A stretch of DNA of 64,000 nucleotides from Mucilaginibacter sp. OK283 (GTDB taxonomy: Bacteria; Bacteroidota; Bacteroidia; Sphingobacteriales; Sphingobacteriaceae): contig NZ_FODR01000003.1 of the NCBI RefSeq assembly GCF_900110415.1, positions 310,001 to 374,000 on the forward strand, given 5' to 3'. The notes beneath the pieces were generated by a model, which searched no databases, was not told the origin of the DNA, and was given only the letters and a program-made list of their open reading frames with translations. Position numbers and translations under genes: made by a program. Positions 7,122 through 38,456 of this stretch are shown one piece after another (position 1 is the first letter of the stretch; each line of letters starts with the position of its first letter).

Positions 7122-7167
7122 GTATTAGTCGGAAAGTCCGAAAGTCGGGAAGTCCGAAAGATAAAAG

Positions 7168-7203
7168 AAGACCGGAAGCGTATTAGCTTACCGGTCTTTT
7201 ACA
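7168..7203 (+). terminator. Terminator of nrdA
   Basis: AAGACCGG (7168-7175) pairs perfectly with CCGGTCTT (7191-7198), followed by a T-rich tail. It lies 47 bp after the nrdA stop. Confidence 0.7.
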
Positions 7204-7251
7204 TTATTAGTAGTCGGAAAGTCCGAAAGTCGAAAAAGTCCGAAAGATACA

Positions 7252-7289
7252 AAGACCGATAAGCTTCGTAGCTCATTGGTCTTTTATAT
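7252..7289 (+). terminator. Second, related terminator-like hairpin
   Basis: AAGACCGATAAGC pairs with GCTCATTGGTCTT with two mismatches and is followed by TTTATATTT. It resembles a diverged duplicate of the hairpin 80 bp upstream, including the octamer array that precedes each. Confidence 0.5.
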
Positions 7290-7435
7290 TTAGCCTACGG
7301 TTAGCTTCTGAACTTTCCGACTTCTTCTCTTTTACATTATAATGATCTGAAAAGCTTTTATTTGCTATCAAACTTGTCGACCTTTGACAAAACAACTTTC
7401 GGACTTCCGGACTTTCCCGACTTCCGGACTAAAAA

Positions 7436-17305: not shown

Positions 17306-17743
17306 CTATTCTTCTATTACTTCGATGCTTAAAATTTTATCGCCCTGGCGAATAGCGTCAACAACGTCAACGTTTTCAATCACTTTACCAAATACGGTGT
17401 GGTTACGATCTAAGTGAGCGGTATTTGTACGGTTATGGCAGATGAAAAATTGTGAGCTACCTGTGTTACGGCCGGCATGTGCCATTGAAAGCACACCACG
17501 ATCATGGTATTGGTTATCGCCTGTCAATTCGCAATCAATTTTGTAGCCTGCGCCTCCAGCACCGGTACCGGTTGGGTCGCCGCCCTGTACCATAAAGTTA
17601 GGAATAACGCGGTGGAAGATAACACCATCGTAAAAGTTTGATTTTGCTAATTTTTTAAAGTTAGCTACAGTATTTGGGGCATCCTGATCGTAAAACTCTA
17701 CGGTCATGTCGCCTTTTTCAGTTTTGATTATTGCTTTGCTCAT
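17306..17743 (-). CDS. Cyclophilin-type peptidyl-prolyl cis-trans isomerase
   Basis: 145 residues, cytoplasmic (no signal peptide). This is the short cyclophilin form that catalyses proline isomerisation in protein folding. Family motifs present: NTVANFKKL, FYDGVIFHRVIPNFMVQGGD (residues 37-56, with the catalytic arginine in FHR), GTGAGGAGY, LSMAHAGRNTGSSQFFI and LDRNHTVFGKV. The start at 17743 gives a complete first strand (AIIKTEKGDMTVEFY). Confidence 0.93.
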   Translation of the reverse strand: MSKAIIKTEKGDMTVEFYDQDAPNTVANFKKLAKSNFYDGVIFHRVIPNFMVQGGDPTGTGAGGAGYKIDCELTGDNQYHDRGVLSMAHAGRNTGSSQFFICHNRTNTAHLDRNHTVFGKVIENVDVVDAIRQGDKILSIEVIEE

Positions 17744-17785: not shown

Positions 17786-17816
17786 AGGTGAAAGGGAAAA
17801 GGTTAAAGGCGAAAGG
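17786..17816. repeat. Heptamer array (AAAGGnn), inverted partner at 18541
   Basis: On the minus strand the units read CCTTTCG, CCTTTAA, CCTTTTC, CCTTTCA. Together with 18541-18575 they form an inverted pair bracketing the secreted-protein gene 17834-18361. Confidence 0.65.
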
Positions 17817-17833: not shown

Positions 17834-18361
17834 TTACCATGGGACAAAGGTTAGTGTATAATTTTTTTCTTTGGGTGAATATTTAAATTCACCTTTTCGA
17901 TTATAGTTAAAAGCTTTCTCATTTGAATACGGTTTGTCACTCGCCTTATTTATTTCAGCAATCGCAACAGAATACCATTCCCAGCCATTTGGCCCTCCTA
18001 ATGTGGAGCAAAACCATTGTATCCTTTGTAGTTCCGCGTCATTGGTCGCATTATCGCCACTGGGTATGAAAATCCATTTGGCCAGCACCAATTCGTCCGT
18101 TTTTCCGATTAATTGAATATTACTGCCTCTTGAATTGACTGCAACGAAATTTGGTAAGCCGATGCTGTCTTTTTTTTGTTTGAAAACCAAGGTTGGGTCA
18201 AATTCAATTATCTTACTAATCAATTCGTCGCGATTAATTTCTAACCCAGGTTTGAAGGCTGGCGGACCGTTTTCATTTTGGGCACTTACTGACAAGCATA
18301 ATAGAATTACGAACTGGCTGCTTAAAGCGATTTTAACGATAAAAGAAAGTGGTGATTTCAT
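17834..18361 (-). CDS. Hypothetical secreted protein
   Basis: 175 residues with a signal peptide (FVILLCLSVSAQ, cleavage about residue 27). I do not recognise the family. The mature part has aromatic, beta-rich stretches (LAKWIFIP, GWEWYSVAIAEI) and one cysteine (WFCSTL). The gene is bracketed by an inverted pair of heptamer arrays (17786-17816 and 18541-18575). Confidence 0.65.
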   Translation of the reverse strand: MKSPLSFIVKIALSSQFVILLCLSVSAQNENGPPAFKPGLEINRDELISKIIEFDPTLVFKQKKDSIGLPNFVAVNSRGSNIQLIGKTDELVLAKWIFIPSGDNATNDAELQRIQWFCSTLGGPNGWEWYSVAIAEINKASDKPYSNEKAFNYNRKGEFKYSPKEKNYTLTFVPW

Positions 18362-18493
18362 TATTGGTTAGGTTGATTCAAAATATTAAGCTAAAATAAT
18401 ATTAAACAATCAGGTTTCAGTAAATACCAGTAATACTGCGATAGTTTATTCGTTACATTTGATAATCAATATCATCTAAAATAATTCCGAATA

Positions 18494-19786
18494 GTGATTA
18501 GCCAACAGCATAAATACGTTTCATCTTTCAGCATAAAATACCTTTTACCTTTCGCCTTTTGCCTTTTACCTCTTTTGACAAAAGCTGCCTCTATCCTCAT
18601 CCCTATGGACGATGAGCAAAAAGATCACCTGAAATCTTACGGCATAGCTTTCCTGGCTTTAAAAAATGGCGAGGAAGTTGACTGGCTGCTAAACTATCGC
18701 GGCGGCAGCTTTATGATGAAGTATAACCAGAAGATGGAGGAGGAGTGCAAAATACGCGGGGTGAGCTACCAGGTGCTGGCCGATGCCAAGGTGAGCGAGA
18801 TTATTACCGAGGTAAGCGACCCATCGGTAAATATGGATGTGGTTAAGTTGGAGAAAGCACCCAAGATGGCCGTTTACTCGCCAAAAAATAAACTGCCCTG
18901 GGATGATGCAGTAACGTTGGTGTTGAAATATGCCGAAATACCTTATGATGTAGTTTATGATGAGGAAGTTGTTAGAGGCGACTTGCCCAAATACGATTGG
19001 CTGCACCTGCACCACGAGGATTTTACCGGGCAGTACAGCAAGTTTTACGGCGCTTTTAGGTTTGCACAATGGTACAACGATGATGTAAAAGGACAGGAGG
19101 CGCTTGCTCATAAGCTTGGTTTTAAAAAGGTATCTCAAATGAAGCTGGCAGTCGCCAAAAACATTCGCGATTTTTGCGCCGGCGGCGGTTTTTTGTTTGC
19201 CATGTGCTCGGGTACCGATACGTTTGATATTGCCCTGGCCTCATCCAATACCGATATTTGCGAGCGGATGTTTGATGGAGATGGGGCCGACCCCGACGCG
19301 CAATCGAAACTGGATTTTACACAAACTTTCGCTTTCCAGAATTTTACGCTGGATATGAACCCGATGTCGCACCAGTTTAGCAACATTGATGTAACTACTA
19401 CCCGGCAGGTGGAGCGCCAGCGCGACTTTTTTACGCTGTTTGATTTTTCGGCCAAATGGGATGTAGTGCCCAGCATGCTTACCCAGGATCATGACAAAGT
19501 GATAAAAGGCTTCATGGGGCTTACAACTGCCTATAATAAAAGCATGCTAAAGCCCGGCGTAACCATCATGGGCGAAATGAAAACTGCCAATGAAGCCCGC
19601 TATATCCACGGCGAATATGGCAAAGGCCAGTGGACATTTTACGGCGGCCACGATCCAGAAGATTACCAACACGCGGTGGGCGATCCGCCAACAGATTTAA
19701 AGCTTCACCCCAATTCGGCAGGGTATCGCTTGATTTTGAACAATGTATTATTCCCGGCGGCAAAGAAGAAGAAGCAGAAAACGTAA
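18494..19786 (+). CDS. Secreted protein of the family often labelled 'asparagine synthetase B'
   Basis: 430 residues from a GTG start. The mature sequence from about residue 33 (ASILIPMDDEQKDHLKSYGI) matches a well-conserved Bacteroidota family carrying that label in databases. I see no glutamine amidotransferase or asparagine synthetase motifs, so the name is doubtful. The middle (GGGFLFAMCSGTDTFDIALA, about 237-256) resembles a ThuA/class I amidotransferase-like nucleophile-elbow region, a hint only. Homologues keep the mature start, so a signal peptide is expected; here its core is encoded by a heptamer array. No ATG lies close upstream of that core, which makes the GTG start provisional. 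The C-terminus is lysine-rich. Confidence 0.75.
   Translation: MISQQHKYVSSFSIKYLLPFAFCLLPLLTKAASILIPMDDEQKDHLKSYGIAFLALKNGEEVDWLLNYRGGSFMMKYNQKMEEECKIRGVSYQVLADAKVSEIITEVSDPSVNMDVVKLEKAPKMAVYSPKNKLPWDDAVTLVLKYAEIPYDVVYDEEVVRGDLPKYDWLHLHHEDFTGQYSKFYGAFRFAQWYNDDVKGQEALAHKLGFKKVSQMKLAVAKNIRDFCAGGGFLFAMCSGTDTFDIALASSNTDICERMFDGDGADPDAQSKLDFTQTFAFQNFTLDMNPMSHQFSNIDVTTTRQVERQRDFFTLFDFSAKWDVVPSMLTQDHDKVIKGFMGLTTAYNKSMLKPGVTIMGEMKTANEARYIHGEYGKGQWTFYGGHDPEDYQHAVGDPPTDLKLHPNSAGYRLILNNVLFPAAKKKKQKT
18541..18575. repeat. Heptamer array encoding a signal-peptide core
   Basis: Units CCTTTTA, CCTTTCG, CCTTTTG, CCTTTTA, CCTCTTT are read in frame as the hydrophobic core LLPFAFCLLPLL of the protein starting at 18494. 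The same word in the opposite orientation is non-coding at 17786-17816. Confidence 0.7.
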
Positions 19787-25701: not shown

Positions 25702-26006
25702 CTGCGCAGTCATTGTCGCTGCGCAGTCATTGTCGCTGCGCTTGTCATTGGTCATTGGTCATTGGTCATTGGTCATTGGTCATTGGTCATTGGTCATTGG
25801 TCATTGGTCATTGGTCATTGGTCATTGGTCATTGGTCATTGGAAAAGGCACAGCCTTTTCCAATCCACCGTCTGGTGATTTTTTACCATCTTGTTTTTTA
25901 ATAGAAAAGCCCAATGACCAATGACAGCGCAGCCCAATGACAAATGACAGCGCAGCGAAATGACCAATGACAAGCGCAGCGACAATGACCAATGACAGCG
26001 CAGGGA
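25701..26006. repeat. TTGGTCA heptamer array with GCTGCGC boxes and inverted copy
   Basis: Two 17-bp units (GCTGCGCAGTCATTGTC) lead into 14 identical heptamers TCATTGG at 25745-25842. The complementary words, alternating with GCGCAGC boxes, fill about 25911-26006. The array accounts for most of the 426-bp spacer 25702-26127; the rest holds two hairpins and an AT-rich promoter-like stretch. Confidence 0.85.
25841..25885 (+). terminator. Tandem hairpins inside the heptamer locus
   Basis: GGAAAAGGC and GCCTTTTCC form a perfect 9-bp stem with a 3-nt loop (25841-25861). A second small stem, CACC/GGTG, is followed by six T residues. Together they are a plausible terminator for the hydrolase gene. 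Confidence 0.5.
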
Positions 26007-26127
26007 TATGAACCAATAATAATTAAGTAAAATTTCTGTTTGCTTTGCAGTTAAATGGATGCCGTTTGTTATAATTGGCAATTATATCAATGTGTTAAAA
26101 ATACACATACCAGTTACAACCAATTAA

Positions 26128-34460: not shown

Positions 34461-34598
34461 AGTCGGGAAGTCCGAAAGTCAGAAAAGTAACTGGAGTTGT
34501 TAGTCCGGAAGTCGGGAACTCCGAAAAGTCGTCGTCTGGAGTTAACCCTTCCCAACTTCCGGACTTTTCTGACTTTCGGACTTTCCCACTTTCGGACT
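34461..34598. repeat. Octamer arrays (AGTCSGRA), forward then inverted
   Basis: Forward units (AGTCGGGA, AGTCCGAA, AGTCCGGA) fill 34461-34536. The complementary series follows at 34548-34598. Same word as at 7127-7430. The whole spacer between the DUF3857 pair and alaS could fold as a long hairpin, and the alaS promoter element begins 6 bp after it. Confidence 0.8.
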
Positions 34599-38246: not shown

Positions 38247-38456
38247 GATATAGTAGATAGTCCATAGTCGATGGTCCATAGCGCCTAGTTCATGTTCCAT
38301 AGTCCATAGTGCATGGTTCATGTTCCATAGTCGATGAGCCATAGTTCATAGTTCATAGTCGATGGTCCATAGCGCATAGTTCATGTTCCATAGTCCATAA
38401 TTGATGGTCCATAGTGCATGGTTCATGTTCCATAGTCGATGGTCCATCGTCCATGG
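38247..38456. repeat. Array of about 30 heptamers (TYCATRG)
   Basis: 28 contiguous 7-bp units from 38261 to 38456 (TCCATAG, TCGATGG, TTCATGT, TGCATGG and similar), preceded by GATATAG and TAGATAG. A higher-order block (TTCATGT-TCCATAG-TCCATAR and neighbours) recurs. It occupies half of the 416-bp spacer 38167-38582; the remainder holds only the gatB promoter. Confidence 0.9.

Follow-up and report, generated by a model that had tools for sequence, protein, structure and literature searches.

ORF 18494-19786 (plus strand) is expected to begin with an export signal, and at that very place its DNA consists of CCTTTYR heptamers, a repeat that also occurs outside genes. This raises the question whether an array of the intergenic type can be the coding DNA of a signal peptide, or whether a signal peptide only resembles such an array. 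The locus lies in a 64,000-nucleotide stretch of Mucilaginibacter DNA, the whole of which is called the window in the following.

The leader and its heptamers

The ORF opens with a GTG codon (18494..18496, plus strand) that is, as the initial annotation had stated, the sole in-frame ATG, GTG or TTG 5' of the ATG at 18605. Close relatives also have GTG at this place, and the start codons of 112 orthologues, all in frame, are ATG in 84 cases and GTG in 28. A downstream start had been envisaged at 18602, but this is a proline codon and the in-frame ATG is the one at 18605, from which translation is unlikely to start in view of the conservation of the ILIPMD strand and of the RAAS/KAAS c-region immediately 5' of it. 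Upstream of the GTG, the TAnnTTTG box TACATTTG (18454..18461, plus strand) is a candidate Bacteroidota -7 promoter element, and by raw count such a box lies within 400 nt upstream in 101 of the 112 orthologues.

The leader MISQQHKYVSSFSIKYLLPFAFCLLPLLTKAAS (18494..18592, plus strand) has the predicted layout of a Sec signal peptide, with a charged n-region, a hydrophobic core (h-region), small residues at -3 and -1, and a putative cleavage site; its c-region RAAS/KAAS is kept across orthologues, among which a conserved pattern K/R...LLPFAF.LLP..RAAS can be read by eye. The heptamers that the initial annotation had seen here are present as four in-register units encoding the h-region (18541..18568, plus strand; CCTTTTA CCTTTCG CCTTTTG CCTTTTA), followed by a degenerate fifth unit CCTCTTT (18569..18575, plus strand), and in the frame of GTG 18494 they translate as YLLPFAFCLLPLL. 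Two decayed heptamers, CGTTTCA TCTTTCA, are found in the n-region (18517..18530, plus strand), where in a relative (L136) the same AGCATAAATA is followed by intact CCTTTCACCTTTCA, and an imperfect 24-bp duplication detected by TRF (18506-18553) encloses them. The mature domain, beginning ILIPMDDEQ (18593..19786, plus strand), is that of a conserved protein present in 115 of 120 relatives, which is predicted to be secreted and to be cleaved from its leader. It has no assigned fold: Pfam and NCBIfam hold no family for the ORF's protein, its predicted structure has a mean pLDDT of 55 and found no match at E<=0.001 in a PDB fold search, and a sequence search of solved structures gave just two matches, with E 0.65 or worse.

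CCTTTYR arrays in the window and in other genomes

The non-coding copy of the heptamer word that had been reported nearby was confirmed at 17789..17816 (minus strand), 5' of the peptidyl-prolyl isomerase gene 17306-17743(-) and between this gene and ORF 17834-18361(-). With up to two mismatches, CCTTTTRCCTTTTR matches the window 13 times, against a mean of 5.1 in shuffled sequence and with none of 100 shuffles reaching 13. In the own genome, a strict triple CCTTTYR pattern has 25 matches and the same pattern read backwards has none, while a looser pattern marks 31 distinct places against one match of its reversed control. Three of these 31 places are sense-strand signal peptides (those of ORF 18494-19786, a lipoprotein and a NIPSNAP protein), one is in the ispG gene, a few are on the antisense strand of genes, and the remainder is found where there is no clear gene. 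CCTTTYR is a dispersed family of heptamer arrays, with tandem in-register units at many places, mainly intergenic. Strict triple matches per genome range from 0 to 127 in the genus, with zero control matches in all 73 genomes, and several other genera of the same family are also array-rich. A gap-tolerant array scan (864 kb, threshold 20), with 13 and 16 matches against 10 and 5 in reversed controls, was too noisy, and exact patterns were therefore used.

The leader is a hotspot of such arrays. In the 73 genus genomes, 22 distinct places match the 27-base pattern CTTTTRCCTTTYRCCTTTTRCCTTTTR; ten of these are the leader of this gene in ORF 18494-19786 orthologues, and one belongs to a second copy of the gene in G015, as its leader. 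Strict triple arrays lie within the leader in 15 of 70 genomes. A search with a made-up repeat peptide returned mostly non-coding arrays; among the matches listed, open frames of more than 400 aa belonged mainly to the gene of this leader, and two other long frames were found (L320, where a perfect array lies 5' of a membrane-protein gene, and one in G005).

Other repeats occur beside this family, as the own genome houses several families of short tandem arrays. The window contains a perfect 14-copy GTCATTG heptamer array (25744-25842) with related CCAATGA/AATGACC repeats at 25908-26017, and octamer and longer repeat families (AGTCCGAA, ACTTCCGG and CCATAGT-like) at 7126-7290, 7395-7430, 34502-34598 and 38257-38456. 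The second gene copy in G015 (L262, contig C5) has its own heptamer leader and, directly 5' of it, a GACCAGT-type heptamer array. In two genomes of the genus, an ispG-like gene has heptamer arrays within its coding sequence (own genome, C12:349232-349257, L031 and L360; G030, L240:5486-5540), and those of the own genome include a purine-pyrimidine inverted pair. Several intergenic arrays are also found as inverted pairs, the purine strand followed by the pyrimidine strand, which could form hairpins (L048, L050, L396, L388, L256). ORF 17834-18361(-), encoding a secreted-looking protein of 175 aa between the isomerase gene and ORF 18494-19786, may be an insertion flanked by two arrays, since the matches flanking its site are only about 115-170 bp apart in G041 and G021.

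Heptamer excess beyond the amino-acid demand

As 7 is not a multiple of 3, the CCTTTYR sense strand reads through all frames in one cycle: it has no stop in any of them and its translation is hydrophobic in each, as had been noted for the heptamers before, always giving PF[AT]F[CYRH]L[LS]. The leader might then be an ordinary signal peptide in which selection for L, F, A and P in T-rich codons mimics heptamers by convergence, and the amino acids of the h-region alone do lift the heptamer score, the mean of synonymous shuffles being 14.7 for these leaders and 8.2 for those of other families. For scoring, at most 40 codons immediately preceding the body were compared with the heptamer profile and with such shuffles, in 70 of the 73 genus genomes (those with an intact N-terminus), in 35 fetched out of 42 matching genomes of other families, in five of the paralogues, and, from other genera within the family, in 20 of the orthologues that matched. 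Codon-usage shuffles were exceeded at p<=0.01 by 54 of the 70 genus leaders, by 3 of the 35 from other families and by none of the five paralogues, and permutations of the leader's own synonymous codons were exceeded by 39 of 70 against 0 of 35. Two of the 20 leaders from other genera of the same family were heptameric at p<=0.01, with a top score of 15.8. Among the sampled genomes the heptameric leader is a feature of the genus, and in other genera the signal peptides of the orthologues come from unrelated, non-heptameric DNA. Within the genus, significance is not reached by 16 of the 70 leaders, and a number of leaders are clearly ordinary (e.g. L066, L071, L073, L078 and L081).

A second set, overlapping the first, was used for the tests of phase, score 20 and LL codons, start codons, lag and boundary: from 151 loci, 116 distinct ones were kept, and 112 of these have at least 78% body identity. 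A score of at least 20 is reached by 78 of the 112 orthologue leaders and by none of 192 other signal-peptide-like N-termini, drawn from the 715 ORFs of 864 kb in two genomes of the genus, whose mean score of 6.7 is about that of their shuffles (6.6). The residue pair LL is written as CTTTTR in 162 of 332 cases in these leaders, in 2 of 138 in their bodies, and in 13 of 176 in other signal peptides. Also without any consensus, the self-match at lag 7 is 0.40 in these leaders against 0.30 after shuffling, compared with 0.26 against 0.25 in other genera, and it peaks at lags 7 and 14. In the leader of ORF 18494-19786, the array character exceeds the demand of the amino acids, and the DNA is not that of an ordinary signal peptide. 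Convergence is very unlikely as an explanation, as the scores lie far above those of synonymous shuffles, the self-match peaks at lag 7 and not at lag 6 or 9, and neither the other signal peptides nor the NIPSNAP leaders of the same genus have such an excess.

Codon phase and a second gene

Successive CCTTTYR units step through the three codon phases, and depending on the phase a C for T at unit position 6 is silent, gives R or H in place of C or Y, or gives S in place of L. In the h-regions of the 112 leaders, the ratio of C to T is 13:12 where the phase is silent and 1:69 where it is not, whereas in phase 1 of the n-region it is 19:1; the n/h boundary was chosen by the analyst and the Fisher tests treat units as independent, which they are not, but when each 80%-identity cluster is represented by a single leader, the ratios in the h-region are 6:7 (silent) and 1:38 (non-silent), and the contrast is kept at every n/h cut from 12 to 22 residues in this gene and in the lipoprotein gene described below. 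Non-coding arrays have C at 24 of 59 units and no register bias. As C in the h-region is almost only silent, and C in the n-region gives R, H or S, the leader array reads as a tuned export signal; the phase-dependent letters argue that leader arrays are filtered as signal peptides, with charged or polar residues before the core and hydrophobic ones in it.

The same letters bear on the possibility that a DNA or RNA element is conserved here (a regulator site, a translation element or a hairpin partner) and that the peptide is its by-product. Arrays do lie 5' of the start codons of non-secreted genes (L270, L273, L389), and heptamer arrays upstream of starts in Beggiatoaceae have been proposed to be translational regulators (PMC4679880). 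A dependence of position 6 on codon phase and signal-peptide region would not be expected for an untranslated function, and this explanation is therefore rather improbable.

The lipoprotein gene (own body C16:9253-9690) is present in 68 of the 73 genus genomes and repeats the finding. Of its 68 matches 30 were fetched, followed by 27 more loci (8 from the genus, 19 from other genera), and the leader is heptamer-coded in 33 of 38 genus cases (29 of 30 and 4 of 8) and in none of the 19 from other genera; the phase test agrees with that of the ORF 18494-19786 orthologues. The NIPSNAP gene was rejected as a third case and served as a same-genus control: the own and same-species copies have heptamer-like leaders, but the family is ordinary, with 1 of 30 leaders heptameric by the CCTTTYR score and 4 of 30 by a looser score.

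History and turnover of the leader array

On a tree of 115 bodies, a minimum of 20 changes is needed for the state of scoring at least 20, compared with 30.5 when the labels are shuffled, so that the heptamer state is partly inherited and often altered. The core KYLLPFAF.LLPF..RAAS is found across the genus, and array length has changed repeatedly. Compared with the same-species genome G120, the own h-region is identical, and the n-region of G120 has extra CCTTTCR units; in other close pairs the leader is mostly little changed, and turnover is thus not fast everywhere. The suggestion that an array was co-opted as, or replaced, an export signal stands as far as the array nature of the leader DNA is concerned, but a single recent replacement does not fit the genus-wide core, the repeated length changes and the like behaviour of the second gene. 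Across genomes, the leader score rises with the number of arrays outside the leader (rank correlation rs=0.60, n=70, without correction for descent), and of the 30 genomes in which no other strict triple array occurs, 14 still have a leader score of at least 20. In genera outside Mucilaginibacter that are rich in arrays, the leader of the ORF 18494-19786 orthologue is ordinary, and arrays alone are therefore insufficient; array capture by the leader looks like a lineage event and not like an automatic result of the presence of arrays.

Tandem 7-nt units close to a start codon could also form a phase-variable switch, in which one unit gained or lost shifts the frame and turns the gene off, and in Haemophilus influenzae tracts of heptanucleotides are among the candidates for phase variation (PMC2651432). 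It is hardly likely that this is their role here, as all 112 orthologues have an in-frame ATG or GTG and the units are few and degenerate; off alleles differing in unit number were not seen in the 112 leaders, with one sequence per genome.

A repeat as a possible source of export signals

It is probable that 18541-18575 is a member of the dispersed CCTTTYR array family that serves as the coding DNA of a Sec-type signal peptide. An early Mucilaginibacter ancestor may have acquired array DNA in the leader, by insertion or by growth in place, so that the direction would be from array to leader, and a later gain and decay of units, most marked in the n-region, would have followed, with slippage or recombination as the possible mechanism of growth. 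Units ending in TTTTR would supply the hydrophobic core and TTTCR units in a non-silent phase R, H or S, and selection would keep T-type units wherever hydrophobic residues are needed. The array would be translated as the signal peptide, with the RAAS/KAAS c-region and the body as ordinary conserved sequence. Because the reading is stop-free and hydrophobic, growth, decay and register shifts can be tolerated provided that the body stays in frame.

More tentatively, it is quite possible that such a frame-proof hydrophobic repeat is a ready-made source of export signals, in that its growth at a 5' end makes a signal peptide in any frame, T or C at position 6 sets hydrophobicity against charge, and repeat turnover feeds the evolution of the secretome of the genus. 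An intergenic repeat that would pass for junk is tied here, through a clear sequence logic, to a conserved protein function, genus-wide and in two unrelated genes predicted to be secreted. This offers a testable route by which signal peptides may arise from, or be rewritten by, simple repeats, and it accounts for the tolerance of coding DNA to CCTTTYR where other heptamer families bring stops. A search of the open-access literature found no report of signal peptides built from tandem or heptamer repeats.

Comparison with known systems

Like ordinary Sec signal peptides, the leader has an n-region with K or R, a hydrophobic core and a c-region resembling A-x-A/S; unlike them, it is encoded by a repeat array whose length turns over. 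Rickettsia palindromic elements are longer, palindromic mobile elements that are inserted in frame into proteins. As in their case, a conserved protein owes part of its sequence to a repeat dispersed in the genome, but CCTTTYR is a tandem unit of 7 nt and makes up a leader that would be cleaved from the protein, and direct 7-nt repeats, but no long palindromic element, were found in the leader of ORF 18494-19786. Simple-sequence contingency loci, as described for H. influenzae (PMC2651432), share the short tandem units near a start codon, and the leader array differs from them by its degenerate units, by frame-off alleles not being seen and by the amino-acid selection on its letters. Heptamer arrays as such are known from bacteria, mostly between genes (PMC4692102, PMC4679880), with GGGNATC arrays in Xanthomonas and Nostoc (PMC4692102) and TAACTGA arrays in Beggiatoaceae, Cyanobacteria and some Bacteroidetes (PMC4679880), and like these CCTTTYR consists of tandem 7-nt units that are dispersed in the genome and mostly intergenic. 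TAACTGA reads into stop codons and is therefore limited to the ends of genes in the account given of it (PMC4679880), whereas the sense strand of CCTTTYR is free of stops, hydrophobic, and found within coding sequence as a predicted signal peptide.
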